From NCBI RefSeq assembly GCF_900116205.1, contig NZ_FOZS01000004.1, forward strand, positions 186,001 through 250,000: a DNA stretch of 64,000 nt. The letters are read 5' to 3'. Shown here in pieces: positions 22,226-46,400 of the stretch. This DNA comes from Halostagnicola kamekurae (GTDB taxonomy: Archaea > Halobacteriota > Halobacteria > Halobacteriales > Natrialbaceae). Under the pieces are notes generated by a model. That model was not told the DNA's origin. It made no database searches and saw only the letters and a list, made by a program, of their open reading frames with translations. Position numbers and translations under genes: made by a program. How positions within the stretch are numbered: the first letter of the stretch is position 1; each line of letters starts with the position of its first letter.

Positions 22226-24799
22226 CTAGTCGAGCAGCGGTTCCTCGCGAACGGTGGCGTCGTACCGTTCGCCCTCGTACAGAATCTCGAGTTCGGTCCC
22301 GGGCTCGGCGTACTCCGGTGGGAGGTATGTGTAGACGACGCAGGCGCCGACCGTGTAGCCGTACTCGGCGCTGTGTGCGTAGCCGATCGATTCATCACCG
22401 TCGAAGATTGGACGGTGAGGAAGGATCGTCGCCGCTTCGTCGTCGAGGGTCAGGCACGCGACCTTGTGGGTGATGTTGTCACCCTCGGCTGCTGCAACGA
22501 CCGCTTCCTTGCCGATGAAGTCGGTCTCCAGGTCGGTAGCCCACCCGAGGCCCGCTTCGTAGGGGTTGTGCTCAGTGTGGAGGTCCTCTCCCCAGAGCCG
22601 GAACCCTTTCTCGATGCGCAGCGCGTTTAGCGCGCCGTTGCCGTACGGGCGAATGTCGTACTCTTCGCCGGCCTCCATGAGATGTTCCCAGAGTTGCTCG
22701 CCGTACTCGGAGGGCGTGTACAGCTCCCAGCCGAGTTCGCCGGCGTAGGACACTCGGAGCGCGGTGACGGGCACGTTCTTGACGAAGAACTGCTGACTCG
22801 TGAAGAACGGGAACGCCTCGTCGGAGAGATCCACGTCCGTCACCTCCGAGAGCACCTTCCGCGCGTTCGGACCGGTACAGACCATCGCCGCCAGGCTCGA
22901 GGTAACGTCGTTGACGACCACGTCCTCGGGGGACTGCTCGCGGACCCACGCGACGTGGTTGTTTCCGACCTCGCGACCGGTCGTCAGAACGAGATAGCGG
23001 TCGTCGTCGACGCGCGTGACGGTGATGTCCGCACGGATGCCACCCTCCTCGTTACACATCAAGGTGTACCGGACATCGCCAATGTCGAGGCTCATGTCGT
23101 TCGTACAGAGGCGCTGAACGAAGTCTCCGGCGTCGCTGCCGACGACCTCCATCTTATTGAACGAGGTCATGTCGTGGAGGCCGACCTTGTTGCGGACGTG
23201 TAGCGCCTCCGCGCCCTCGATGGGCGACCAGTACTTGCCTTCCCAGCCCTCACGGTCCGGAATCTGGTCGCCGTACTCGGCGAGCAGGTCGGCGTTGGAT
23301 TCGAACCACTGCGGTTCCTCCCACCCGGCTTCGGCCCACAGCTCGGCGTCGAGTTCCTTGTGGCTGTGGTACATCGGCGTGCGGCGGATGTCGCGCTGAT
23401 GATCCGTCCAGACCCACTTCGGGTGCATGATGTTGTAGACGATGCGGTACTCCTCGCCGCCGATGTCCCGTGCGAAGTCCCAGCTACCTTCGTGGTCGTC
23501 GAACCGATTGACATCGCAGTGCCGGAGGTCGATCGGTCCGTCGGAGAGACGGGGGACGCCGTTTTCCATCCACTCGGCGAGCGCTTTGCCGGCGCCGCCG
23601 GCGTGAGTGACCCAGATTGCGGCCGCGGTCCAGAGCCCGTCGTACTTTTGGACTGGTCCCATTACCGGTAGGCCGTTAGGGGATTCCGCGAACATGCCGT
23701 TGTACTTGTGTTCGAGTTCCTTCCCCTCCGTGGCCGGTAGCAGTTCGTTGCTGGCCTGTCGGGGGGCCTTGTCCGGTCGATCCGGGTGGGTCGCGTTGTT
23801 CATATGGTACTCGGTGAATTTGTGGACCGAGCCCTGTTCACCGCCCTCCTCGTTGCCGCCGAGCTCCCGCGGGTCCGGAACGACGGGTTCGTGGTTGTAC
23901 GACCCGATCCCGTACGAATCCCCGTGGGTACGGAAGTACATCGCGTTGTCCTGATCGCGGAGGATCGGCCGGTCGGGGCCCGCGAGCAGGCGATCGGTCT
24001 TCTCGCCGGAGACGTCCTTGTAACCCTCGTACAGCGGGTGGTCGCTGACGTCGATCTGGTTGTCGGCGAGCTCCTCGAGCGGCTCGGTCATCGTGTACTG
24101 ATGCTCGACCGGCGTCACCGGGAGGTGAACGTCGAGTTTCTCACCCAGCTGACGCGCCCAGATGTTCGTCGCGATGACGACTTCGTTACACTCTATAGTC
24201 CCGTTTTCGGTGATAACAGAGCTGACCGAGCCGTTCTCGGTCTCGACGTCTTCGGTGCGGGTATGCGGAACGAACGTCGCTCCCCGGTCCATGGCTCCTC
24301 TGGCGAGGGCAGCGCAGGCGACGACGCCGGACACCTGGCCGTCAGTCGGCGAGTAGTACCCTCCCTGAATCGCGTCGCTGTCGACGAGCGGCAGCTTCTC
24401 TTCTACTTCCTCGGGCGAAAGGATCTCCGAGTTCGGGAGGCCCCAGGATTCGGCCCACTCGACGCGTCGCTGGAGGAAGTCCATCCGCTCGTCGCTGCGA
24501 GCGACCTCGATACCGCCGACTTCCTTGTAGGCCTGGACCCCGTTGTCGTCCTCGAGTTCCGAGTACACGTTCCGGCTGTACTTGGCGAACTTCGAGAGGA
24601 TCTTCGACTCGGAGGTCTGGAACATGATTCCCGGTGCGTGGCTGGAAGATCCACCAGTGGTTGGCATCGGGCCCTGATCGACGACGACGACGTCGTCTCG
24701 GCCGAGTTCGGTGAGCTGGTACGCCAAGTTACACCCGACGATACCGGCACCGACAATAACAGTGTCCGCTTGGTCCGGTAAGCTATCGTCTGCGTTCAT
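22226..24799 (-). CDS. Dimethylglycine/sarcosine dehydrogenase-GcvT fusion, copy 1
   Basis: From the ATG at 24799 the product is 857 residues. Residues 12-400 are a DAO-type FAD oxidoreductase with dinucleotide motif VIVGAGIVGCNLAYQL. His54 in GGSSSHAPG matches the His that binds FAD covalently in dimethylglycine oxidase. Residues about 480-760 form a GcvT folate-binding domain (VGLHDMTSFNKMEV, ADITVTRVDD, SYAGELGWELY) and 770-855 the GcvT C-domain (PHRPIFDGDESIGY). Such enzymes oxidise an N-methyl group and pass it to THF as methylene-THF. Whether it prefers dimethylglycine or sarcosine cannot be read here. A second, clearly diverged copy is at 40664. Confidence 0.93.
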   Translation of the reverse strand: MNADDSLPDQADTVIVGAGIVGCNLAYQLTELGRDDVVVVDQGPMPTTGGSSSHAPGIMFQTSESKILSKFAKYSRNVYSELEDDNGVQAYKEVGGIEVARSDERMDFLQRRVEWAESWGLPNSEILSPEEVEEKLPLVDSDAIQGGYYSPTDGQVSGVVACAALARGAMDRGATFVPHTRTEDVETENGSVSSVITENGTIECNEVVIATNIWARQLGEKLDVHLPVTPVEHQYTMTEPLEELADNQIDVSDHPLYEGYKDVSGEKTDRLLAGPDRPILRDQDNAMYFRTHGDSYGIGSYNHEPVVPDPRELGGNEEGGEQGSVHKFTEYHMNNATHPDRPDKAPRQASNELLPATEGKELEHKYNGMFAESPNGLPVMGPVQKYDGLWTAAAIWVTHAGGAGKALAEWMENGVPRLSDGPIDLRHCDVNRFDDHEGSWDFARDIGGEEYRIVYNIMHPKWVWTDHQRDIRRTPMYHSHKELDAELWAEAGWEEPQWFESNADLLAEYGDQIPDREGWEGKYWSPIEGAEALHVRNKVGLHDMTSFNKMEVVGSDAGDFVQRLCTNDMSLDIGDVRYTLMCNEEGGIRADITVTRVDDDRYLVLTTGREVGNNHVAWVREQSPEDVVVNDVTSSLAAMVCTGPNARKVLSEVTDVDLSDEAFPFFTSQQFFVKNVPVTALRVSYAGELGWELYTPSEYGEQLWEHLMEAGEEYDIRPYGNGALNALRIEKGFRLWGEDLHTEHNPYEAGLGWATDLETDFIGKEAVVAAAEGDNITHKVACLTLDDEAATILPHRPIFDGDESIGYAHSAEYGYTVGACVVYTYLPPEYAEPGTELEILYEGERYDATVREEPLLD

Positions 24800-26219: not shown

Positions 26220-27383
26220 ATGTCCATGAATGCCGTCGTTTACAAAGGTGAACGCGAGGTAGCAGTCGAAGAAGTCGAACAACCACAGATCGAGCACCCA
26301 AACGACGTCGTAATCGACATCACGACGACGTGTATCTGCGGATCCGACCTCCACATGTACGAGGGACGGACGGCCGCAGAGTCAGGGATCGTGTTCGGGC
26401 ACGAGAACATGGGGATCGTGACCGAAGTCGGCGATGCGGTGACCTCCCTCGAGGAGGGCGACCGGGTCGTCGCGCCGTTCAACGTCGCCTGTGGCTTCTG
26501 TGAGAACTGCGAGAACGGCTATACCGGCTTCTGTACGAACGTCAATCCCGGATTCGCCGGGGGCGCGTACGGGTACGTTGCGATGGGGCCGTACAAGGGC
26601 GGTCAGGCCGAGGAACTCCGCATTCCGTACGCGGACTTCAACGCACTCAAACTGCCCGACGGAGACGAACACGAGGACTCGTTCGCACTGCTCGCGGACA
26701 TCTTCCCGACCGGCTGGCACGGCACCGAACTCGCAAATCTCGAGTCCGGTGACTCCGTCGCGATCTACGGCGCCGGCCCGGTGGGCCTGATGGCGGCCTA
26801 CAGCGCCAAGCTCAAAGGTGCCGCCGAGATTTACGTCGTCGACCGCGTTCCCAGCCGCCTCGAACTGGCCGAGGAACACTGCGACGCGACGCCGATTAAT
26901 TTCGAGGAGGGCGACCCGGTCGAACAGATCAAGGATATCCACGGCGGCGGCGTGGACAAGGGCGTCGACGCCGTCGGATATCAGGCGATCGATCCGGAGA
27001 AGCAAGGCGACGACGCGTACGATCCCGCTCGCGAGAACCCGGCTGTCGTCATCAACAATCTCATCCGGACGGTCCGACCGACCGGCGAACTCGGGATTCC
27101 GGGATTGTACGTCCCCGACGATCCCGGCGCACCGGACGAGATGGCCGCACAGGGCCGTCTCGGCATCGACTTCGGCCTCCTCTTCGAGAAGGGACAGGCG
27201 CTCGGTACCGGCCAGTGCAACGTCAAGGAGTACAACCGCGAGCTCCGCGACATGATCGTCGAGGGGCGCGCCGACCCCAGCTGGGTCGTCTCCCACCGCG
27301 TCGACCTGGAGGACGCACCAAAGATGTACGAGAAGTTCGACAACCGCGAGGAAGGCGTCACGAAGGTCCTGCTGGAACCGTAG
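26220..27383 (+). CDS. Zinc-dependent, glutathione-independent formaldehyde dehydrogenase
   Basis: This 387-residue medium-chain dehydrogenase has catalytic zinc ligands Cys40 and His61-Glu62 (CICGSDLHMYEG, FGHENMG), the four structural-zinc cysteines 91, 94, 97 and 105 (CGFCENC...FC) and a Rossmann motif VAIYGAGPVGLMAAY. The long insert DAVGYQAIDPEKQG and the extended C-terminal region are features of the Pseudomonas-type formaldehyde dehydrogenase, which dismutates or oxidises free formaldehyde to formate with bound NAD. In this island it would remove formaldehyde from oxidative demethylation of betaine. It is followed by a convergent COG0523 GTPase gene. Confidence 0.9.
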   Translation: MSMNAVVYKGEREVAVEEVEQPQIEHPNDVVIDITTTCICGSDLHMYEGRTAAESGIVFGHENMGIVTEVGDAVTSLEEGDRVVAPFNVACGFCENCENGYTGFCTNVNPGFAGGAYGYVAMGPYKGGQAEELRIPYADFNALKLPDGDEHEDSFALLADIFPTGWHGTELANLESGDSVAIYGAGPVGLMAAYSAKLKGAAEIYVVDRVPSRLELAEEHCDATPINFEEGDPVEQIKDIHGGGVDKGVDAVGYQAIDPEKQGDDAYDPARENPAVVINNLIRTVRPTGELGIPGLYVPDDPGAPDEMAAQGRLGIDFGLLFEKGQALGTGQCNVKEYNRELRDMIVEGRADPSWVVSHRVDLEDAPKMYEKFDNREEGVTKVLLEP

Positions 27384-27608: not shown

Positions 27609-28727
27609 TCAATTGGATTTGCGGGGGAAGGGATCAGTAGAGTACTCGTCGGTCCGTTCGTCAAACGACGCCAGACAGTCGTCGAGTTCGGTGGTCACGG
27701 CCGCTTCGTCGAGGTCGCTGCCGATGAACACTAACCGCGTCACCGGATCGTCGTCGCCCCACTCGCCGATCGGGCCAGCCTGGACGGACGGACCGGCCTG
27801 ACTTACCCCGAGAACCGTCTCCGGGCGGCTCGCCACCCACGCGAACCCTTTCGCGCGGATAATCTCGCCGTCCCAGTCGTCGAGCCACGCGTCGAACCGC
27901 TCGGGGTGGAAGGGGCGGTCTCGCCGATAGACGAACGACTCGACGCCGTGTGCCTCGGCCGCCGAAACGGCGTCGTCACTGTGGTCGTGATCCGGATGCT
28001 CGTTCGCTGTGTCTCCGGCCAAGGCTCGCTTCCAGCCTTGCTGTCGCCGTGCCGCTTCGAAGTCGAACGATCCGGTGTCGAGAACGGCGCTCGGGTCGAC
28101 ATCGCTGTACGTCGTTCGATGAAGCGTCGCACGCGGCTGGAGTTCGCGGATGGCGGCCTCGATAGACTCCCGGGCATCGTCGGGTACCATATCGCACTTG
28201 TTCAGCAACAACACGTCGCAGAACTCGATCTGATCGACTAACACCTCGGTCAGCGGGCGCTCAGGGTCCGGGGCGGCATCCGGAAGGGATTCCTCGGAAT
28301 CGAACGCTTTCCAGAACCCGTAGGCGTCGACGACCGAGACTGTCGTATCGAGGCGGAACCGGTCCGGAAGGCTGTCCGCTTCTGTCCCATCCGTGAGCGC
28401 GCGAGCGATGGGAATCGGTTCGCTGATTCCCGACGCCTCGACGGCGAGGTAGTCGAACGAGCGCTCCTCGGCCAACCGCGTCGCTTGATCGACGAGGTCG
28501 CCCTGGAGCCGACAGCAGATACACCCGTTCGAGAGATCGACGACGCCCTCCTCCGTCTCGTCAGCGATCAACTCCGCGTCGACGTTGACCTCGCCCATGT
28601 CGTTGACGATGACGGCGATTCGCCTTTCGCCGGGATCGTTCAGCAGTCGGTTGACAAGCGTCGTTTTACCCGCACCCAGCGGTCCACTGATAACGGTGAT
28701 CGGAATCTCCGATAGAGACGTAACCAT
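27609..28727 (-). CDS. CobW/COG0523 G3E-family GTPase (metallochaperone-like)
   Basis: The 372-residue protein begins with a Walker A site, ISGPLGAGKTTLVNRLL, has the family metal-binding CxCC motif in NGCICCRLQGDLV, a Walker B-type EASGISEPIP and the guanine-specificity LLNKCDM. A CobW C-terminal domain follows (about 245-360), with a His/Asp-rich stretch near residues 228-242 (ANEHPDHDHSDDA). COG0523 GTPases deliver zinc, iron or cobalt to target enzymes. The convergent neighbour is a two-zinc formaldehyde dehydrogenase, and nearby there are iron oxygenases, so a metal-delivery role for the island is plausible. The specific metal is not determinable. Confidence 0.88.
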   Translation of the reverse strand: MVTSLSEIPITVISGPLGAGKTTLVNRLLNDPGERRIAVIVNDMGEVNVDAELIADETEEGVVDLSNGCICCRLQGDLVDQATRLAEERSFDYLAVEASGISEPIPIARALTDGTEADSLPDRFRLDTTVSVVDAYGFWKAFDSEESLPDAAPDPERPLTEVLVDQIEFCDVLLLNKCDMVPDDARESIEAAIRELQPRATLHRTTYSDVDPSAVLDTGSFDFEAARRQQGWKRALAGDTANEHPDHDHSDDAVSAAEAHGVESFVYRRDRPFHPERFDAWLDDWDGEIIRAKGFAWVASRPETVLGVSQAGPSVQAGPIGEWGDDDPVTRLVFIGSDLDEAAVTTELDDCLASFDERTDEYSTDPFPRKSN

Positions 28728-29085: not shown

Positions 29086-29511
29086 CTATCGAGTGATCAG
29101 GGCGATACTGAGAGCCGCGAATGCGATTCCAATAAATTTCGTTATCGTCGCATCGTCTCCGAGAACAACGATACCAAGGATGGCCGCTACGACGAAGTAC
29201 ATGGCACCGAGAGTAGAGACCATCGTCGTTGACCCCTGGGTGAATCCGATGTACATCGAAATAAGGCCGATTCCGGTGAACAGTCCTGCCGCGCCAGCAA
29301 GCATCCCTCCTCTCGCAGTAACGGCGAGCGATGCGTCTGAAACGACGATGAATCCAAGCGCGAGGAAACCCGCTACGAGATACGAGATCGCAGCGGCAGT
29401 CCTCGGATCGATGGCCTCCGACGCGGCGTTGCCTAGGATTATCCAAATCCCCCATGACGTCATCGTAATCAAGCCGAACAAAATTCCCGAATCCATTTCA
29501 GTGAACTCCAT
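29086..29511 (-). CDS. Half-size EamA/DMT-family membrane protein
   Basis: The ATG at 29511 gives 141 residues with five hydrophobic helices, one EamA repeat rather than the usual two. It begins MDSGILFGLITMTSWGIWII, has a central FTGIGLISMYIGFTQG and ends ITKFIGIAFAALSIALITR, matching the conserved EamA edges. Single-repeat members are thought to dimerise into a ten-helix transporter. A drug/metabolite export or amine-uptake role is possible; the substrate is unknown. TTTAATG-type AT-rich sequence precedes the start. The longer in-frame start at 29637 adds only basic, non-conserved residues. Confidence 0.8.
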   Translation of the reverse strand: MEFTEMDSGILFGLITMTSWGIWIILGNAASEAIDPRTAAAISYLVAGFLALGFIVVSDASLAVTARGGMLAGAAGLFTGIGLISMYIGFTQGSTTMVSTLGAMYFVVAAILGIVVLGDDATITKFIGIAFAALSIALITR

Positions 29512-29721
29512 CCGTACGGTCTTCGCGCCGGTATTTAATGAAAAACAATGTTCGATATGACCGGTGCTTAAATACTCGCTGCTAACGGTTGTTCTGCGTC
29601 TGAATAAGTCCCTTCGCACGTGATGTCTCGACAGCAACCCCGGATAATGAACCGCGGTGCTCCGAAAAACGGAACTCCATATTCGATCGACTGAGTCTCC
29701 CGCTCCGACGTTTCGAATCAG

Positions 29722-30732
29722 TTACGAGTTATAGGCCTCTTGAGCGAGCTGATGGAAGCGGTGGACGGTGTGTTCGTTGGGGCCGAGTTGGGCCTGGGCG
29801 AGCGCGCCGGTTTTGAGGCCTTGCCACTGGCGCTCGACCAGCTCGAAGTCCTCCTCTTGGAGCTGGCGGCTCGTGCGGACGAACTCGCGTTCCTCGTCGG
29901 TGAGTTCGCTGTCGCGGAAGTAGTAGTCCGCGATGAGTTGGAACCGGTCGGTGTCGATCGGATCGACGATGTAGGTGCCGTAGCCGTCGGCGGTGCCGTA
30001 CATGTTGACCGTGAAGTTCGGCCAGAGGTAATGGAACTGCGCCTCGTGCTCGTCGTGGATCCGCATCTCGTCCTCGACATCCTCAGCGTGCGTGTAGTGG
30101 AGGACCCAGTGGTAGTCGTTGACCTCGAGTTCGGACTCGTTGAGCGAGATGCCTTTGATCCAGTCCTGGTGGTTGGCCTGGCAGTGGTCACACTCCGAGT
30201 AGTTGCTCGCGAACACCTTCCAGTTGCACTCGACCTCCGAACTGATCCGGGTGGCAAGTTCGTACTCCTCGAGGGGCAGCGCCTCGAGTCGATCCTTCAT
30301 GACGCCGGCCTGTTCGGCCAGCGGCATCGGATCCTCGCTGAGGTTGACGAAGAGCAGCGGCCCGATGCTGTCGACGTGCATCGACTCCGCATCGGCGAGC
30401 TCGTCCGGATCGACGCGACGGGGATCGGTCATCGGCGCGTCCTCGAGGAGCACGTCGCCGTCGCGAGCGGAGAAGTTGGCCACGGCGCGGACGTCACCGT
30501 CGTCGTCTCGAGCGACGATCAGATTCCGGCCACCGAGGGTTCGCGTGAAGTACTGGCCGGGATCGCTGATGCTGTTGGCGTGGCCGGCGTACACCCAGTA
30601 CTGGCCGAAAATCTTCTCTTTTTCCATCTCGAAGACGTCGCCATCGGTGAAATACCGGGCCGGCAGCGCGTTTGTCTCGTCCGTGATGTCCGCGCTCACC
30701 GCCTCGGTCTGGCTTTGGTTCCATTGCGTCAT
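29722..30732 (-). CDS. Rieske-less paralogue of glycine-betaine-type oxygenase alpha subunit
   Basis: The 336-residue product is nearly identical to the Rieske oxygenase at 33145 except in residues 65-118. There the first ligand pair C-x-H is changed to Ser88 and Arg90 (ANFSARDGD), and about 41 residues holding the second C-P-Y-H pair are deleted, so a [2Fe-2S] Rieske cluster cannot form. The mononuclear iron site is kept: Glu180, His183 and His188 in YSECDHCQANHQD, the same spacing as in carnitine oxygenase CntA. The frame is open to the normal stop. It may form mixed trimers with its paralogue, regulate it, or be a young pseudogene. The start at MTQW matches the paralogue. Confidence 0.85.
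   Translation of the reverse strand: MTQWNQSQTEAVSADITDETNALPARYFTDGDVFEMEKEKIFGQYWVYAGHANSISDPGQYFTRTLGGRNLIVARDDDGDVRAVANFSARDGDVLLEDAPMTDPRRVDPDELADAESMHVDSIGPLLFVNLSEDPMPLAEQAGVMKDRLEALPLEEYELATRISSEVECNWKVFASNYSECDHCQANHQDWIKGISLNESELEVNDYHWVLHYTHAEDVEDEMRIHDEHEAQFHYLWPNFTVNMYGTADGYGTYIVDPIDTDRFQLIADYYFRDSELTDEEREFVRTSRQLQEEDFELVERQWQGLKTGALAQAQLGPNEHTVHRFHQLAQEAYNS
30539..30674 (-). repeat. 136-bp identical block, copy A
   Basis: This block inside the Rieske-less gene is identical, base for base, to 34085-34220 in the intact paralogue and covers codons for about residues 20-65. Both genes lie in direct orientation about 3.5 kb apart. Confidence 0.9.
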
Positions 30733-31841
30733 GCGGTAGCACATTTGGGGGCGTTCCGAAAAAGCGTTCACCAGTTATATGGAATCCCATTATATGGTCG
30801 GTTTCCGTCTTCGGATATCAGATAGCTCCGCGATATCGATTTGACCGTCTCGAGCCGGCGACTCTTACGACCGACGTTCTAGTGTCGAGCCGCTTCATGC
30901 GCTTGAATCGCTCCGATACCGCCGTATTTACGCAGGGATTCTCGGGAAACAGATCGTGAAACACAAAACCTTAGATGTCGAACCTTTTGTTGATGGAGCG
31001 CGATAGCTCTGGCTGCGTTTTCGAATGGAACTCCGAGTTCGGTGCGGAAGAGACGGAAATAGAACTGCTGCCGGATCCGTCCGATCACGGATGGACGACG
31101 GGATATCGCCTATACTTTTCGACTGCGTAAACGTGGGAGGCAGGATCGCAGTTTCGGTGTCCCAGTTCGCCACGGTCTATCGGCTACCACGACCTTGGAC
31201 GCCCTCTTTCGGACGCTGCAATTCGGCACGCGATGGGGGTCAGCGGCAGATAATGCCCCCACGCGCCGATGTGGGCGACAGGTCCGCTGGCCGACGAGAA
31301 CGGTTGAGTCGTTCGAACGTCGAGCTATCGATCGGATTTCTGTCATCCGTACGTGTTCGGACTCGACACTAGAACGTCGGTCGTAAACGCGACCTATTAC
31401 AAGTATACGCATGTAATTCCTTATCGGCTCGAGATCGCTGACCGGAATCGTCCGTACGAAGCCGTTCGCTGTTCGATTCTATGATATCGAGACCGCGACC
31501 GGAGATCGGTGACCGTTCCGTGACGTTCGCGAACTCGCATAGTATCGAATCTGTCACGATGTGTTTCACGAACGCACTCGATCCGCTCGACTCGTCCGCG
31601 ATCTCGGTCAGTTCACGATCAACGCGATAGCGATCCCGCCTGGTGCCAGCAGACAAGTTCGTGGGCGAACCGCGATGGTTCCCCAGGATCGAACCGGACG
31701 GCTCTGCAGGTGGTGCGGGTACCTCCCACCTCTCAGAGCGGAATGATTACCCTGACCGTCGGGCACGGTCAGTCGGCGTGAGTCGCCCGCCTGTCGGTCG
31801 AAGCAGTCAACTATTTCGGTCGACGGGCGAGAGAACCGAGT
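30733..31841. other. Long non-coding stretch with promoter of the Rieske-less gene
   Basis: About 1.1 kb hold no gene that I can support. At the left end, on the minus strand, the promoter region carries the direct repeat CCATATAA-7 bp-CCATATAA followed by CTGGTGAACG, close to a CTGGTTAACC in front of the intact paralogue. A minus-strand frame at 30879-31088 ends KYGGIGAIQAHEAARH; it resembles nothing known to me and may be a gene remnant. Confidence 0.45.
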
Positions 31842-32732: not shown

Positions 32733-33092
32733 TCAGAACGCACCGAGGTGATCGTCCTGCGGTTCGTACAGGCCGCCGGTCATCCGCACCTCGTGGATCT
32801 CGTCTAACGTCTCGCCGATCGAGACCCCTCGGTCGGACATCACCCCCGCGACGACGCCGATCGGGACGCCGTTCTCGTACTGCTCTTGCAGTTGCCAGAT
32901 GACGTCCTTGAGATCGTCGGTAGCGACGTCGGCGGCGAGATCAATCTGTGCGCGTTCGAACTCCACGTCGTGGCCCGTCACGCGGTAGTGACGGCGGTAA
33001 AACTCGATGATTTCGTTCGGCGTCTCGGTTCGTAGATCGACGTCGCACTCCGGGCAGGACGCGACGTACGGTGCCTGATCTTGGGTACTCAT
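32733..33092 (-). CDS. Zinc-ribbon plus winged-helix protein, possible local regulator
   Basis: The 119-residue protein has an N-terminal CPECDVDL motif with a partnering HYRVTGH further on, suggesting a one-ended zinc ribbon (1-45), and a C-terminal winged-helix-like part (about 60-119) reading YENGVPIGVVAGVMSDRGVS and ending GGLYEPQDDHLGAF. That ending is very like the winged-helix tail of haloarchaeal MCM proteins. A DNA-binding role is inferred. It lies just downstream (53 bp) of the intact Rieske gene start-to-end unit on the same strand... its ATG at 33092 faces the Rieske stop at 33145, so both could share a transcript. Confidence 0.72.
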   Translation of the reverse strand: MSTQDQAPYVASCPECDVDLRTETPNEIIEFYRRHYRVTGHDVEFERAQIDLAADVATDDLKDVIWQLQEQYENGVPIGVVAGVMSDRGVSIGETLDEIHEVRMTGGLYEPQDDHLGAF

Positions 33093-34302: not shown

Positions 34303-34578
34303 CTAAAAACGGTTAACCAGTGATATTGAACATGAATATAAGTGGATAACCGACCTGGGGAGAGGACCCGTTTTTCCGTTCCGATAACGCGGTCCGTTCC
34401 GTTTCGGGGCGTCGCGGATGATTCCAGCGTCCGCGAGCATCGGTAGATGAACGCGCCGGAACGAGGTTCCCGTCCGTTCGATCACGTCGTCCACGGGCTC
34501 GGTCGCCTCGAGTCGTGACTTCGCGCGTACGGTCGTCGAAACCGATCGCGTCGCGGTCGAGGAGAGATTGCGGCACGT
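34303..34578 (-). pseudogene. Fragment of a winged-helix regulator
   Basis: The minus strand reads SRLEATEPVDDVIERTG and FRRVHLPMLADAGIIRDAP, the pattern of haloarchaeal ArsR/DUF7344-like winged helices in which VHLPxLADAG is the recognition-wing part. The preceding piece (VPQSLLDRDAIGFDD) is in another frame and there is no proper start. It is probably a decayed regulator gene upstream of the Rieske gene. The assignment is tentative. Confidence 0.4.
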
Positions 34579-34738: not shown

Positions 34739-35962
34739 TTACTGGCCGTCGGTGACGCTCTCGCGGATCCGATCGGCGATCTCGTTTCGCGAGGGGTGTC
34801 GCGTGGGTTCGTCCGAGTCGTAGACGCGTTTCATGACGAGATCGAGCAGGTTCAGCTGCTCGAGCAGTTCGCGAGTTCGACCGCGCTCGAGGCTGAGATT
34901 CCGGGTGACGTCGTGTAACGTCATGGACGACTCGAGCGCGTCCATCAGTTCGTTGATTTCGACGTCTTCGGGAAGACCGATCCCGTCGGCGAGGAGCTGT
35001 TTCTCCGGGACGGACGCGGCCGAATCGTCCGCCGTCGCCGGTCGATCGGGTTCGCCGTCGGTCGCCGGCTTCCGGTCTTCAGCGGCGGTGCCGTTCTGCT
35101 GGCCGGTCGTCGTTTCCGAACCGTCGGTCGTCGCGTCATCCTCGTCCGATGCGTTCGTCTCGTAGGACGTCGGCTCGTGGATGCCAGCGTCGATCATGTA
35201 TCGCCGAACGGTCTCTGACGCGACGTCCATCTCAAGCACCTCCGCCATCGCAGTGAACGTATCGAAGGAGTCGTACAGACACGCGAGGTACTCGACGTCG
35301 TCGTACGGTGGCAGGTCTTCGTTCCGTGCGGCCGCGATTGCGCGCTCGGTCTCGTCGTCGATCGTGACGTCGCTCGTCACCGCGTTCGGAGCCGGATCTG
35401 AGGGGGATCGATCGCGGGAATCGGGCACGCGTTCGTCCTCGCTTTCGGTCGCCGACTTCGACTCGCAGGTCGTTACCGTCCCCTCGAACGAATCGACCGG
35501 TGCCTCGCGATCCGGGCGATCGCACTCGATGGGGTCGGTCGATTCGCTTCCGTTCTCGTCGGACTCGGTATGCCCGTTTGCGGTCTCACTGCTCGGCTCC
35601 GCGTTCGCCCCGATACTGAGGTCGAACGTGACGACGACGGTCCCCTCCGAGGTGACGGTTGCTCCCTCCGTGACACACGACGCGTCCGCGGGCACGAACT
35701 CGTCTATCTCCGGCACCGCTGATGGCGGAAACTCGAGGCAGAAACCGCCGTTCTCCCCGACCGTCGCCGCTCGCGGTGTCGCTTCGGTCTCGCTGGCCGA
35801 CACTCCTGCGGCCGAACACAGTGGAACCACGACGTCGATCGTCATGCTTGGTTCGTCACCGTCCCCACGAACCGTCGCGTCGACGCGATGGATCTCGCCT
35901 CCGTCCGCCTCGTATCGTTCGATCGTTCGAGAGAGTTTCTCAATCGAGTCACAGACTCCCAT
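34739..35962 (-). CDS. Haloarchaeal HTH regulator with long acidic linkers
   Basis: From the ATG at 35962 the product is 407 residues; the longer in-frame start adds a poorly coded stretch. Residues 1-115 form a conserved alpha/beta domain starting MGVCDSIEKLSRTIERYEAD. A Ser/Glu/Asp-rich linker follows, then a helix-turn-helix segment at about 220-275 (YLACLYDSFDTFTAMAEVLE and ETVRRYMIDAGIHEP), another low-complexity linker and a helical C-terminus (LHDVTRNLSLERGRTRELLE). The HTH with its TVRRYM recognition helix suggests DNA binding. I know of no assigned function. Its position 460 bp from the betaine oxygenase promoter makes it a candidate regulator of the island. Confidence 0.72.
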   Translation of the reverse strand: MGVCDSIEKLSRTIERYEADGGEIHRVDATVRGDGDEPSMTIDVVVPLCSAAGVSASETEATPRAATVGENGGFCLEFPPSAVPEIDEFVPADASCVTEGATVTSEGTVVVTFDLSIGANAEPSSETANGHTESDENGSESTDPIECDRPDREAPVDSFEGTVTTCESKSATESEDERVPDSRDRSPSDPAPNAVTSDVTIDDETERAIAAARNEDLPPYDDVEYLACLYDSFDTFTAMAEVLEMDVASETVRRYMIDAGIHEPTSYETNASDEDDATTDGSETTTGQQNGTAAEDRKPATDGEPDRPATADDSAASVPEKQLLADGIGLPEDVEINELMDALESSMTLHDVTRNLSLERGRTRELLEQLNLLDLVMKRVYDSDEPTRHPSRNEIADRIRESVTDGQ

Positions 35963-36195
35963 GATACTCGTAATCACACACCTATTTGGGATAAGGGTAC
36001 ATGAGGAATAGTTCACCCATTCATATGTCTCTCGGAAAACCCGTCCTAGAACGGTGATACGCTCCAATCGTCGTGGCACCCGTTATATCGTGGTGTGGCT
36101 ACTCGTGACACAATATTTTCATACTCTCCCCTTGCGCTCCTGAGACGAACGCTTCCGGGACGGCTGGCGGCCGATCCCGGTGGCGGGTATCTGTC

Positions 36196-36726: not shown

Positions 36727-37716
36727 TCACGCTCGCTCCGCGATACAGGCGACCTTCTCGCCGGCGGTCACGACGGACTCGCGGGTGAGCGAGTAGATCA
36801 CGCCGGCGTCGGTCGTCGTCACGCGCTGGCGTTCCTCGAACGTCGAGGGGCAGTACACCGTCCCCAGTTCGGTTCCCGCGGACACGCGATCACCGACGGT
36901 GACCTCCGGGTTCGGTTCGAAGAGCCCCGAAGCGTCGGTACCGATCCGTCCCTCGTCGTTTCGGAGGATCGTCTGCGACGGCGTCGGCCCCGGTTCCTCG
37001 CGGAGCATCCCCAGTTCCCCGAGGACGTTCCGGAGCCCGCAGACCCCGCGGTGTGCCGCGTCGTGATCGATCTGGCGACTGTTCGAGAGCTCCGGAACGA
37101 TCGCTGGAATCCCGGCCCGCGCGGCGGCCGTTCGGAGCTTGCCCTGAAACGACTCGTCGGCCGCGCCGTCGTCCGCTGTGTCGTCTTCCGGTTCACCGTC
37201 GGACGGGGCGTCGGTCAGGAGATAGTCGGCCCCGAACGTTGCCGCGAGGGTCCGGGATTTCCGATTCCCGTGCTGGAATCTGACGTGCTCGAGCATGTCC
37301 GGGGTTCCGGTGTGCAGATCGATCACGACGTCAGCCGGTTCGATCACCTCCCACAGTCGAGCGACGATCCGCTCCTGGAGGGTTCCCGCGTCGTCGCCCG
37401 GCCAGACGCGATTACAGTTGGAGTTAACTGCGTCGACCGCCTGCGGCGTGACGTACGATCCGTGATCGAACGCGAGCGAATTGACGACCGGCACGGCGAT
37501 CACCGTGCCGGCGAGGTCCGCGGTCAGCAGGTGACGGTGCAACCGACGCATCGCAGCCGTTCCGTTGAGTTCGATGCCGTGCTGTGCGGCCTGCACGTAG
37601 GCGGTCGGTCCGGCTCCGCCGTCGTACCGATGGACGGTTACCGCGACGTCCGTCCCGGACGGCAAGCGAGCGAGACGGCGCTCGGCGGTCGCGTGGGTGA
37701 CAGTCTCGTACTCCAT
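36727..37716 (-). CDS. Succinylglutamate desuccinylase/aspartoacylase-family zinc hydrolase
   Basis: The 329-residue protein belongs to the M14-like AstE/AspA family: zinc ligands in QHGIELNGTAA (His and Glu) and in VIDLHTG (His), with conserved NSLAFDHGSY and NSNCNRVWPG segments between them and a C-terminal beta-barrel (SAGTELGTVY). Family members remove acyl groups from amino acids, including N-acetyl-diaminobutyrate in ectoine breakdown. It converges on the truncated pabB and is divergent from the creatininase-like gene, with only 90 bp between their starts. A joint role in degrading N-acyl or guanidino compounds is inference. Confidence 0.85.
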   Translation of the reverse strand: MEYETVTHATAERRLARLPSGTDVAVTVHRYDGGAGPTAYVQAAQHGIELNGTAAMRRLHRHLLTADLAGTVIAVPVVNSLAFDHGSYVTPQAVDAVNSNCNRVWPGDDAGTLQERIVARLWEVIEPADVVIDLHTGTPDMLEHVRFQHGNRKSRTLAATFGADYLLTDAPSDGEPEDDTADDGAADESFQGKLRTAAARAGIPAIVPELSNSRQIDHDAAHRGVCGLRNVLGELGMLREEPGPTPSQTILRNDEGRIGTDASGLFEPNPEVTVGDRVSAGTELGTVYCPSTFEERQRVTTTDAGVIYSLTRESVVTAGEKVACIAERA

Positions 37717-37805
37717 ACTCGTTCAACCCCTCGTTCGGACTTGTAAGTTTGCACGTGTCTCGAGGAAGTATGTTTTATGCGACTACGCGTACAGCGATCG
37801 ACCGT

Positions 37806-38543
37806 ATGCATCTCGAGCGAGCGACGTGGACGGAGATAGACGCGGTCGAAACGGACCTCGCACTGCTCCCGATCGGGAGCACGGAGCAACACGGTCCGCA
37901 CGCACCGCTGGGAACTGACACGCTCAACGCCGAGGTGGTCGCGGACGCGGCCGCGGAGCGGTACGAGGGGTCGGTCGCGGTCGCGCCCGCGGTCCCCGTC
38001 GGTATCGCTGCGGAACACCGGCAGTTCACCGGCACGCTCTGGGCCTCGGAGTCGACGTTCAAGTCGTATGTCCGCGATATCGTCGAGAGCCTCGCCCACC
38101 ACGGATTCGATCGAATCGTTCTCGTCAACGGACACGGCGGGAATACGAGCGCCCTCCGGGAGGTCGCCGGTCAGATCACTCGATCCGACGACGCCTACGC
38201 CGCGCCGTTCACGTGGTTCGACGAGGTCGGCGAACACAGCTCCCGTATGGGCCACGGCGGGCCGCTCGAGACGGCGCTGGTACAGCACGCGAATCCAGGA
38301 GCCATCCGCGAGGACCGCCTCGAGGAAGCCGCCGAGAACGGAAGCGATCGCTGGGGCGACTGGCAAGGACGGGTCAATCTCGCGTTCGACTCGGCCGAGT
38401 TCACCGAGAACGGCGTCGTCGGCGATCCGCGCGAGGCGAGCGCAGAACTGGGCGAAGAGCTGCTCGACGCGGCGGCCGACGCGCTGATAGCGTTGCTGAA
38501 GACCGTCGCTGACCGGGATCTCGACCGTCCCGCCCACCGGTGA
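37806..38543 (+). CDS. Creatininase-family amidohydrolase
   Basis: The ATG at 37806 opens on a typical family start and gives 245 residues. The metal site is visible: Glu and His in PIGSTEQHGPHAPLGTD plus the Asp of that motif, and the NGHGGNTSAL loop, followed by GHGGPLETALV with the late His and Glu. Creatininase hydrolyses creatinine to creatine, one step from sarcosine, which would feed the dehydrogenases in this island. The same fold also occurs in formamide hydrolases of flavin synthesis (ArfB) and in MftE, so the substrate is open. No creatinase gene is in the window. Confidence 0.85.
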   Translation: MHLERATWTEIDAVETDLALLPIGSTEQHGPHAPLGTDTLNAEVVADAAAERYEGSVAVAPAVPVGIAAEHRQFTGTLWASESTFKSYVRDIVESLAHHGFDRIVLVNGHGGNTSALREVAGQITRSDDAYAAPFTWFDEVGEHSSRMGHGGPLETALVQHANPGAIREDRLEEAAENGSDRWGDWQGRVNLAFDSAEFTENGVVGDPREASAELGEELLDAAADALIALLKTVADRDLDRPAHR

Positions 38544-40633: not shown

Positions 40634-40663
40634 GAGAGGGACTGTGTCATGTGTGGGTATCAC

Positions 40664-43219
40664 ATGAGTACAGATAGCTTGCCATCGAGAGCGAAGACGG
40701 TGATCATCGGCGCCGGGGCCGTCGGGTGTAGTATCGCCTACCACCTGACGGAACTCGGTGCAGATGACGTGGTCGTTGTCGATCAGGGACCGCTTCCGGT
40801 GACCGGCGGTTCGTCGACGCACGCGCCGGGAATCATGTTCCAGACGTCGCCGTCGAAGATCCAGACCAAGACGGCCCACTACACGAGCCGACTGCTAAAG
40901 GACGCGGGCGTCTACACCGAGGTCGGCGGTATCGAACTCGCCCGCTCCGAGGAACGGATGGACTTCCTCCAGCGACGCGTCGAGTGGGCCACCTCGTACG
41001 GGCTGCCGGAGCCGGAACTCCTCGAGCCCGAGGAGGTCACGGAGCGTCTCCCGCTCGTCGACGAGGACGAGATCCTCGGCGGGTACTACTCGCCGACCGA
41101 CGGTCGGGTCGATGGAACCGACGCGTTGCAGTGGTACATCGAGACGTCGTCGGCGCGGTTCTTCGGCGACACCGAGGTGACGGACATCGAGGCCAGCGGC
41201 GGCGAGATCCAGGCGGTCGTCACCGACAACGGCCGTATCGAGTGCGACCGGTGCGTCCTCGCGACGAACAACTGGGCGTACCAGACCGGTCAGATGGCGG
41301 GCCTCGACCTGCCGATCGCTCCCGTCGAGCACCAGTACGTGGTCACGGAGCCGCTCGCGGAACTCGACGACGGTTCCAGCGACGTGATCGGCGACGCCAC
41401 CATCGGCCTCGAGGTCCCCGGCGATAGCCAGATTACGGAGTCCATGGCCCAGCCGCCGGATCGGCCGGTCGGTCGGGACCAGGACAACTCGTTGTACTTC
41501 CGCACTCACGGCGACGGCTACGGTCTCGGCTCGTACAACCACGAGCCGCTGGTCGTCGACCCGGACGAGATGGGGACAAACGACGAGGACAGCCAGGCGT
41601 CGGTCCACACCTTCACCGAGAAGCACTGGACGAAGGCGACGCACCCGAATCGCGAGAAGTCGCCCCAGCAGGCGTTCGACGAACTGCTGCCCGCGACCGA
41701 GGACAAAGACTTCCGCATCACGGAGAACGGGATCTTCGTCTACACGCCCGACGGGATGCCGGTTCTCGGCGAGACGGCGGCGGTCGACGGGCTCTGGACC
41801 GGGTTGGCGATCTGGTGGACCCACTCCGGCGGCTACGGGAAGATCCTCGCCGAGTGGATGGAGAACGGCGTCCCGCGACTCCCGTCCGGACCCGTCGACA
41901 CGAGCGGCATCCACGTCAATCGGTTCGAGCCCCACGCCGGGAGCAAGGACTACTTCACGGATCGCGGTGGAAAGCGCTACGAGCAGGTGTACAGCATCGT
42001 CGAACCGCGGTGGCAACCCGACGACCGCCGCGGACTGCGCGTGAGTCCGTTCTACGACCACCAGCGGGACCTCGAGGCCGAGTTCTACCAGAGCGGCGGC
42101 TGGGAGACGCCCCAGTGGTACGAGTCTAACGCGGACCTCGTCGAGAAGTACGAGGAGCAGATCCCCGAACGGGACGGCTGGCAGGGGATCAACCGCTCTC
42201 CCATCGAGGGAGCCGAGCACCTCCACACCCGCGAGAACGTCTCGATGTTCGATATGACGACGTTCAGTTCGATCATGGTCGAAGGCGAGGACGCCGGCGA
42301 CTTTCTCCAGCGTATCTGTAGCAACGACATGGAGATCGATACAGGTCGGGTCCGCTACTCGACGATACTGAACGAGGGCGGAACCATTCTCGCCGACATC
42401 ACCGTCGCCCGGATAGGCGACGGCGAGTACATGGTGACTACCGGCGGCGGCAACTCGCCGGGTATCCACGGCTCCTGGATCGAGGACCACGCGCCCGACA
42501 CCGTCTCCGTGACGGTCGAGGAATCCGCGAAGTGCACCGTCGGACTGTGGGGGCCGAAGTCTCGGCTGCTGCTCCAGCGAGTCACCGATACCGACGTCTC
42601 TAACGACGAGTTCCCGTACTTCAGTTGCAAGCGGCTCTACGTCGGTGACATCCCCGTGATCGCGCTACGGGTCTCGTACGTCGGCGAACTTGGCTGGGAG
42701 CTGTGGGCCCCCTCCGAGTACGGACGGAAGCTCTGGACCACACTCTGGGAGGCCGGGCAGGACTTAGACGTCAGGCCCATGGGCGGTGGCGCCCTCGAGT
42801 CGATGCGCCTCGAGAAAGGGTTCCGCCTGTGGGGGACTGACATCGACACGGACGTCAACCCGCTCGAGGCCGGCCTTCCCTTCGCCGTCGACCTCGACAC
42901 CGAGTTCATCGGGAGAGAGGCGCTCGTTGAGGCCAAAGAGGCGGGCATCGACACCGAGGTCGCCTGCCTGACACTAGACGATTCGACGGACGCGATGCTG
43001 AGCGGCCGGCCGGTGTTCGCTGACGGCGAGGCCGTCGGCTACGTTCAGGCCGGCGACTACGGCTACAGCGTCGGCGAATCGATCGCCTACACCTACTTGC
43101 CCAGCGAGTACGCCGACGCCGGGACGTCGGTGCAGATCGAGTGCGAAGGGGAGACCTATGACGCGACGGTCCGCGACGAGCCGCTGTTCGATCCCGGCCG
43201 CGACAAGATCATCCGGTAG
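40664..43219 (+). CDS. Dimethylglycine/sarcosine dehydrogenase-GcvT fusion, copy 2
   Basis: The product is 851 residues, with the start chosen by the TATA box 31-40 nt upstream. Architecture equals copy 1: FAD motif VIIGAGAVGCSIAYHL, putative flavin-linking His53 in GGSSTHAPG, DAO domain to about 400, then a GcvT folate domain (MFDMTTFSSIMVEG, ADITVARIGDGE, SYVGELGWELW) and a C-domain (LSGRPVFADGEAVGY). Overall similarity to copy 1 is high but far from identity, so substrates probably differ, one enzyme for dimethylglycine and one for sarcosine. Its stop is 31 bp before the ammonia-lyase start, which suggests co-transcription. Confidence 0.93.
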   Translation: MSTDSLPSRAKTVIIGAGAVGCSIAYHLTELGADDVVVVDQGPLPVTGGSSTHAPGIMFQTSPSKIQTKTAHYTSRLLKDAGVYTEVGGIELARSEERMDFLQRRVEWATSYGLPEPELLEPEEVTERLPLVDEDEILGGYYSPTDGRVDGTDALQWYIETSSARFFGDTEVTDIEASGGEIQAVVTDNGRIECDRCVLATNNWAYQTGQMAGLDLPIAPVEHQYVVTEPLAELDDGSSDVIGDATIGLEVPGDSQITESMAQPPDRPVGRDQDNSLYFRTHGDGYGLGSYNHEPLVVDPDEMGTNDEDSQASVHTFTEKHWTKATHPNREKSPQQAFDELLPATEDKDFRITENGIFVYTPDGMPVLGETAAVDGLWTGLAIWWTHSGGYGKILAEWMENGVPRLPSGPVDTSGIHVNRFEPHAGSKDYFTDRGGKRYEQVYSIVEPRWQPDDRRGLRVSPFYDHQRDLEAEFYQSGGWETPQWYESNADLVEKYEEQIPERDGWQGINRSPIEGAEHLHTRENVSMFDMTTFSSIMVEGEDAGDFLQRICSNDMEIDTGRVRYSTILNEGGTILADITVARIGDGEYMVTTGGGNSPGIHGSWIEDHAPDTVSVTVEESAKCTVGLWGPKSRLLLQRVTDTDVSNDEFPYFSCKRLYVGDIPVIALRVSYVGELGWELWAPSEYGRKLWTTLWEAGQDLDVRPMGGGALESMRLEKGFRLWGTDIDTDVNPLEAGLPFAVDLDTEFIGREALVEAKEAGIDTEVACLTLDDSTDAMLSGRPVFADGEAVGYVQAGDYGYSVGESIAYTYLPSEYADAGTSVQIECEGETYDATVRDEPLFDPGRDKIIR

Positions 43220-44765: not shown

Positions 44766-46400
44766 ATGGCACAATCAGATCAGAAGGGGCCGTTCGGACA
44801 GTTCGTTGACGAGCTTGATACGCCGGTGTTCGCGGTCGGCTTCGTCGCCGCGGTAGTCGCGGTGCTCGCGTTCCTCGTCAGTCCGGATACCACGACGGGG
44901 TACATGACCGGCGTGAACGACTTCCTGTGGACTGTGGCGGGCTGGTGGTACCTGGTCGCGATGTTCCTGCTCGTCGCTTTCGTTGGGTTCCTGATATTCG
45001 GTCCCTGGGGGAACATCAAGCTCGGCGCCCCGGACGAGAAGCCGGAGTTCTCGTTCCCCGCGTACTTCGCGATGCTGTATTCCGCCGGGATCGCCGCCGG
45101 GATCGTGTTCTGGGGACCGGCTGAGGCGATCTTCCATTACGACGCCGTCTCGCCGTTCGTCGGCGCGGAGGCCCAGTCGTCGGGAGCGGCCGTCAGCGCG
45201 ATCCAGTACACGTTCTTCCACTGGGGACTCTCCGCATGGACCGCCTACGTCGTTATGGCGCTGCCGATCGCGTACTTCGCGTACAGATACGATGCACCGA
45301 TGCGTATTTCGACAGTGATCGCTCCGTGGGTCGGGTTCGACAACCTTGATAGTCCGATCGCGAAAGTCATCGACATTCTCGCGGTGTTCGCGACGATTGG
45401 CGGCGTCGCAACGACGCTGGGGCTGGTCGGGAGCCAGTTCCTCGTCGGCGTCGAGTGGATGACCGGCGTGAACGTCGGCGACTTCGGAACGGTGATCGTG
45501 ATCACCGGCCTAACCGTCGCGTTCACGATTTCGGTCGCACTCGGCATCAAGAAGGGCATCCGTCGGCTTTCGTACTTCAACATGGTCCTATTCGGCGTGG
45601 TGACCGTCGCGACGTTCGTCCTCGGCCCGACGGCGTACATCATGTCGGTCGGGACCGAAGCGCTCGGCGCGTACGCGAACCAGTTCGTCACGATGAGCTT
45701 CTACACCGGCGCCGAGACTACCATGGGCGGCGGCGTCGCCGAGTGGGTCGGCAGCTGGACCGTCTTCTACTGGGCATGGTGGTTCTCCTGGACGCCGTTC
45801 GTCGGCCTGTTCATCGCCCGCATCTCCCGCGGCCGGACGGTTAGACAGGTCGCTGTCACGGGCGTGATCGCCTCGACCGGCATCACGATTCCCTGGTTCG
45901 CGACGATGGGCGGCACCGCCATCTTCCTTCAGGAGAACGGCCGAGCCGACATTCTCTCCGTCATCAATGAACTCGGCGAGGCCGGGTCCGGCTACCCGCT
46001 GTTCGAGGCGCTTCCGCTCGGGGGCCTGCTGACGGTGCTGTTCCTCGTCCTCGTGACGACGTTCCTCGTCACGTCAGCCGACTCCTCGACGCTGGCGCTG
46101 GGCATGTTGACAACCGGCGGCGCCGAGAGCCCGTCGACGATCAACCGCGTCATTTGGGGTTTCCTCATCGGCGCGCTCGCGTCGCTACTGATGGTCACCG
46201 GCGGCGTCGACGCGCTCCAGCAGGCCGCGATCATCACCGGCGGTCCGTTCTCGATCATCGCCATCCTGGCCGTCGTCGCGATGATCGTCTCCTTCGGCGA
46301 TCGCCGGCCGCTGTTCCTCCGCGAGGAGGACGATGTCTCTCTCCCGAACCCCGAACTCAAGCCGACCGAGCAGGAGGGCGCTGATCCATCCGACGACTGA
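44766..46400 (+). CDS. BCCT-family betaine/carnitine/choline transporter
   Basis: The 544-residue protein has twelve predicted membrane helices. The family signature is complete: a Trp-rich helix with FYWAWWFSWTPFVGLFIARI followed by SRGRTVRQ, and the substrate-binding glycine stretch SAGIAAGIVFWGPAEAIFHY in helix 3. The cytoplasmic tail is short and acidic. BCCT carriers import glycine betaine and relatives by sodium or proton symport. Encoded in the same direction after the ammonia-lyase, it is the likely entry point of the pathway, although haloarchaea also use such carriers for osmoprotection. About 270 bp separate it from the gene upstream. Confidence 0.93.
   Translation: MAQSDQKGPFGQFVDELDTPVFAVGFVAAVVAVLAFLVSPDTTTGYMTGVNDFLWTVAGWWYLVAMFLLVAFVGFLIFGPWGNIKLGAPDEKPEFSFPAYFAMLYSAGIAAGIVFWGPAEAIFHYDAVSPFVGAEAQSSGAAVSAIQYTFFHWGLSAWTAYVVMALPIAYFAYRYDAPMRISTVIAPWVGFDNLDSPIAKVIDILAVFATIGGVATTLGLVGSQFLVGVEWMTGVNVGDFGTVIVITGLTVAFTISVALGIKKGIRRLSYFNMVLFGVVTVATFVLGPTAYIMSVGTEALGAYANQFVTMSFYTGAETTMGGGVAEWVGSWTVFYWAWWFSWTPFVGLFIARISRGRTVRQVAVTGVIASTGITIPWFATMGGTAIFLQENGRADILSVINELGEAGSGYPLFEALPLGGLLTVLFLVLVTTFLVTSADSSTLALGMLTTGGAESPSTINRVIWGFLIGALASLLMVTGGVDALQQAAIITGGPFSIIAILAVVAMIVSFGDRRPLFLREEDDVSLPNPELKPTEQEGADPSDD

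Follow-up and report, generated by a model that had tools for sequence, protein, structure and literature searches.

A Rieske-less oxygenase subunit and its intact or iron-less partner in haloarchaea: a likely two-chain Rieske oxygenase

In the haloarchaeon Halostagnicola kamekurae, two paralogous genes for Rieske oxygenase alpha subunits lie within the window analysed here, a stretch of 64,000 nt at positions 186,001-250,000 of contig NZ_FOZS01000004.1. Throughout, S denotes the Rieske-less short form, F its intact partner, and R an iron-less partner found in other genomes; residue numbers for iron and cluster ligands follow the intact copy, F. The original prediction had placed both copies correctly and read their sequences correctly, both genes being on the minus strand (Table 1).

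Table 1. Genes and sequence elements of the window that bear on the oxygenase pair
Feature	Position	Strand	Remark
FAD/GcvT fusion, related to dimethylglycine/sarcosine dehydrogenases	22226..24799	-	
Zinc alcohol dehydrogenase	26220..27383	+	nearest glutathione-independent formaldehyde dehydrogenase, under model cut-off
ZigA/CobW-type metallochaperone GTPase	27609..28727	-	adjoins S in several genomes
S, Rieske-less oxygenase subunit, 336 aa	29722..30732	-	iron site kept, cluster ligands lost; PF00848 71 bits
Rieske-segment remnant in S, about residues 66-125	30357..30537	-	N-x-S-x-R-x-G replaces N-x-C-x-H-x-G
Promoter/operator-like element before S, TTCCATATAACTGGTGAAC	30766..30784	-	
HVO_B0008-family small CxxC protein (PF25214/PF25215)	32733..33092	-	immediately 3' of F/R, nearly all loci examined
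F, intact Rieske oxygenase alpha subunit, 377 aa	33145..34278	-	both metal sites
Same element before F, TTCAATATCACTGGTTAAC	34312..34330	-	
446-aa protein without Pfam match	34739..36079	-	upstream of F/R, most loci; candidate regulator
Second FAD/GcvT fusion (DAO + FAO_M + GCV_T)	40649..43219	+	
BCCT-family transporter	44766..46400	+	nearest model glycine betaine uptake

S is 41 residues shorter than F (336 vs 377 aa), without a frameshift. As first noticed, Ser and Arg occupy positions 88 and 90 in place of Cys and His, and the in-frame loss of about 41 residues has taken the second Cys/His pair with it (C112-P-Y-H115), leaving none of the four CxH...CxxH cluster ligands. At the level of Pfam families, S matches PF00355 only partially and below threshold, and scores 71.2 bits against PF00848 (Ring_hydroxyl_A; cut-off 24.9). 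The predicted Glu-x2-His-x4-His iron motif was seen again as ECDHCQANH (E221, H224, H229), together with D336, and the equivalents of these four residues, i.e. the 2-His-1-carboxylate triad plus the bridging acid, are present in every tabulated S. The remainder of the protein had been described as unchanged, which holds for the catalytic half (dN 0.010 between S and F) but not for the surviving sequence next to the lost cluster, where dN reaches 0.55 over residues 66-160; overall identity is 87 %. Between the same two copies, dS is 0.17 at the N-terminus, 1.01 in the Rieske segment and 0.24 in the catalytic part. The contrast between a diverged flank and a nearly identical catalytic half agrees better with gene conversion in the latter than with a recent deletion.

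When 84,980 species genomes, and also 391 genomes of Halobacteria, were scanned, S with the identical lesion was found in 21 haloarchaeal species from several genera, including Natrinema, Halostagnicola, Natronococcus, Natronorubrum, Natronolimnohabitans, Haloterrigena, Halegenticoccus, Halogranum and Haladaptatus. The deletion boundaries are common to all of them, Ser88 is found in every tabulated S, and Arg90 in all except one, which has Asn. The reading frame is open in 20 of the 21 species, the exception being Haloterrigena salina, in which it is disturbed at a draft sequence gap. Because the lesion recurs in 21 species, it is beyond chance, and its identical boundaries in independent genomes rule out an assembly or sequencing error as its source. 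The search of related haloarchaeal genomes, which had been suggested along with the original prediction, thus recovered the Rieske-less copy; a young pseudogene, envisaged as being absent from relatives and under relaxed selection, is ruled out by this conservation, by constraint on the catalytic domain and by the promoter element described below. Trees were read for the catalytic domain and the Rieske segment separately: S forms one clade in the Rieske-segment tree (support 0.96), and F and S from one genome tend to be neighbours in the catalytic-domain tree. Taken together with the dS profile, these trees point to a single old origin of S with later, repeated gene conversion of the catalytic half, from which the Rieske-less segment would have been exempt.

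All 21 genomes with S also contain a partner gene, which is F in 15 and R in six. The order F or R, HVO_B0008-family gene, S, on one strand, is seen in 16 of the 21, several having one extra gene in between; in the other five, S and F are separated by roughly 10-15 kb, and F is disturbed by contig ends or gaps in two of these. The converse fails, as most genomes with a related single-copy homologue are without S, and Haloarcula amylovorans has F only. The HVO_B0008-family protein could have a regulatory or an enzyme-assembly role, and we infer a candidate regulator in the 446-aa protein. Two irregular loci were also encountered. Contig 57 of Haloterrigena salina contains three oxygenase copies (L029, L055, L045) with internal duplications, deletions and sequence gaps, which looks like assembly collapse of near-identical copies. 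In Halostagnicola, a further oxygenase fragment with a stop codon, 75-81 % identical (L061 and L012; C33:143652-143819 of G004), is likely a pseudogene remnant.

F, R and S also have a short upstream element in common, with a consensus near GTTCAATATCACTGGTGAAC. Among 41 genes for F, R or S, 37 have it 40-43 nt ahead of the start codon, whereas none of 16 single-copy homologues has it at this position; since the pattern was derived from the F, R and S genes themselves, its specificity is informative and its presence is not. Allowing up to two mismatches, the 4.1-Mb genome of the window contains exactly two copies, one before F and one before S. The element is probably an operator. Its arms are inverted (GTTCA...TGAAC in the F consensus), and in both genes it follows a TATA-like box and precedes the start codon.

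A mirror image of S is found in six Natronococcus-type genomes, the partner there being R. All four C-H-C-H Rieske ligands are kept in R, and its iron site reads D-ED, E-RL or D-RA: the ECDH stretch carries a disruptive in-frame deletion, another residue stands in for the second His, and four of the six R proteins have lost D336 as well. A frameshifted catalytic half in R was considered and ruled out, as the frame is homologous throughout. In these six genomes, one chain has the cluster only and the other the iron site only, a division that does not extend to the genome of the window, whose F has the two sites together. A search of the split genomes for PF00848 proteins returned none beyond S and R, bar one distant oxygenase in a single genome (G145), on a scale where R itself scores under the search threshold in some of them, and thus detected no intact close homologue that could do the work or be inhibited; most of the split genomes are drafts, and one (G147) is 99 % complete in three contigs. 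Further Rieske-domain proteins are present in the split genomes and could in principle act as donors to S. In one genome of the same genus group as those with R (G279), S occurs together with an intact F; the partner would thus seem to have lost its iron site after S arose.

Selection on the two halves of these proteins follows the same division. The catalytic domain of S is under strong purifying selection, with a dN/dS of 0.051 where the partner is an intact F and 0.078 where it is R, and its Rieske remnant evolves faster than the rest of S (about 0.4; 0.357 in genomes with R). Conversely, the catalytic domain of R is relaxed (0.608, vs 0.047 in F) while its Rieske segment is constrained (0.104, vs 0.107 in F). 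On phylogenetically independent pairs, the contrast between the halves is significant for R (Fisher p = 4e-5) and, with the sign reversed, for S from those genomes (p = 5e-4). The low catalytic dN/dS of S in genomes with intact F may be due in part to gene conversion from F.

A quaternary amine, for instance glycine betaine, is the likely substrate of an oxidative N-demethylation, as suggested by a gene context of demethylation type, which includes FolD and serine hydroxymethyltransferase in addition to the enzymes and transporter of Table 1, and by a structural match to CntA. That quaternary-ammonium monooxygenase is the best structural match for the models of both S and R; with mean pLDDT values of 67.7 and 64.5, the models are of moderate confidence, probably due to shallow alignments, and the match supports the fold rather than details. 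Against the GbcA equivalog model NF058607, F scores 138 bits and S 77 bits, both far below the curated cut-off of 670. Inside the demethylation cluster, at 36727-38543, the genes for a DoeB/AstE-like deacylase and a creatininase-family hydrolase form a divergent pair, one possible clue that the substrate is not betaine. At 29086-29637 lies a 183-aa EamA-family protein, below the usual two-repeat EamA length, which adjoins S here and in Haloterrigena relatives.

Rieske oxygenases place each subunit's cluster ~12 Å from the iron of the neighbouring subunit, with a bridging acid as the link (PMC12445004). Since each iron is ordinarily fed by the neighbour's cluster, one chain can lose its own cluster if a neighbour supplies one. 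With a probability of roughly 75 %, we consider S to belong to a heteromeric Rieske oxygenase as its acceptor, or catalytic, subunit, the iron of which is fed by the partner's cluster, likely for quaternary-amine N-demethylation; the physical complex of S with its partner, its activity, electron path, stoichiometry and substrate are what we infer from the genes. The loss of the cluster-binding subdomain would have been a single event in an ancestor shared by several genera of haloarchaea, or S would have spread among these, and S, with its bridging carboxylate and iron ligands, would represent the acceptor half. F, or R in Natronococcus, would then pass an electron over the subunit interface to the iron of S, the mixed ring of R and S having at least one R-to-S interface. 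As F retains its iron site in most species, mixed trimers and F homomers might both be working there, and in the window's genome, S may contribute further acceptor sites that differ in substrate or regulation. In the Natronococcus lineage, with a partner that lacks the iron site, activity would come only from the R and S pair. Genomes with F and S, such as that of the window, are best explained as a first stage, and Natronococcus as the completed split. It is fairly probable that the series from single-gene homologues with both sites through F with S to R with S records a homomer becoming an obligate two-chain enzyme, gene conversion having homogenized the catalytic halves at the middle stage.

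Three roles had originally been proposed for S, namely an acceptor-only subunit of mixed trimers, a brake on activity, and an enzyme with another electron donor, and the first of these is now the best supported, given a partner in all 21 genomes, the shared element and six genomes with complementary loss. That S might be a stand-alone homomeric oxygenase, fed by a different electron carrier (a free Rieske ferredoxin or one of plant type, for instance), is unlikely: it has a parallel in NdmC, which is without a cluster and is fed by NdmD (PMC10380055), as well as potential carriers in the additional Rieske-domain proteins of the split genomes, but it leaves unexplained why F or R occurs with every S, why the Rieske half alone of R is strongly selected and why the genes have a common promoter element. 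Still less probable is a non-catalytic modulator, a brake or scaffold that joins F trimers. Mixed trimers with F are indeed expected from the near-identical catalytic halves, but the iron site is complete in every tabulated S, with all four of its residues, and such a role cannot be general, because the search of Natronococcus-type genomes showed no close homologue besides S whose iron site is intact, and there is nothing to inhibit. It is also very improbable that both Natronococcus genes are decaying as their pathway is lost, the mirror image being coincidental; the relaxed catalytic domain of R (dN/dS 0.61) agrees with decay, but the domains that decay are complementary, and the other domain of each protein stays constrained across six genomes. 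Finally, S might be a pseudogene that gene conversion keeps similar to F. Such conversion is evident within genomes, in that catalytic halves tend to group by genome and Rieske segments by type, but this reading is already largely refuted by the open frames (with their one exception at a draft gap), identical boundaries and conserved element, and by the dN/dS of 0.078 in Natronococcus, where the intact F is gone as a conversion donor, and it has scarcely any probability left.

The proposed acceptor subunit S and its donor partner would be of wider use for the study of this enzyme class. Inter-subunit electron transfer in Rieske oxygenases has been deduced mostly from structures and mutants. 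With donor and acceptor sites on separate chains, the haloarchaeal pair would offer a natural system in which to test how the electron travels, which interface suffices for function and how many subunits of each kind the oligomer contains, and would show a stepwise route from homomer to obligate heteromer via complementary loss.

Among known systems, the chlorophyllide a oxygenase of Micromonas pusilla (MpCAO) has reportedly lost the iron site from one chain and the cluster from the other. PMC9615114, which discusses MpCAO (Kunugi et al. 2013), describes two chains that are active in vitro when purified, suggested to form a heterodimer or a trimer of dimers. Haloarchaeal R and S would likewise be a Rieske oxygenase on two chains. 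MpCAO, however, is eukaryotic, serves the chlorophyll pathway and belongs to another subfamily, whereas the haloarchaeal pair is archaeal and of the quaternary-amine type (CntA/GbcA-like); the latter would also have come from duplication and stepwise complementary loss, with gene conversion, and with intermediates preserved in which one subunit is degenerate.

In the 7-methylxanthine demethylase of Pseudomonas, NdmC/NdmD/NdmE, NdmC is without a Rieske cluster and receives electrons from the cluster of NdmD (PMC10380055). S resembles NdmC as a catalytic subunit without a cluster that would take electrons from another chain, but the Pseudomonas donor is a Rieske domain carried by a reductase, NdmD, whereas the partner of S is a paralogous oxygenase subunit; the annotated part of the window showed no reductase with an extra Rieske domain. 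The NdmA/NdmB heterohexamer (PMC12445004, PMC10380055) has two paralogous alpha subunits in one assembly, as is proposed for S and its partner, but both Ndm chains retain both metal sites. CntA (6y8j/6zgp), a carnitine monooxygenase, is the closest solved structure and a homotrimer (PMC12445004), and GbcA is the closest named family, with a model match well under its cut-off; in contrast to S without a cluster and R without an iron site, CntA and GbcA have both sites on a single chain. It was too strong to regard a Rieske-less alpha subunit as a wholly new arrangement, given NdmC (PMC10380055) and the two-chain MpCAO (PMC9615114). An archaeal split Rieske oxygenase was not found in the open-access literature searched, and an earlier description elsewhere is possible. 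To our knowledge, R and S would, if the reading is true, be the first archaeal split Rieske oxygenase, and one with its intermediate preserved.
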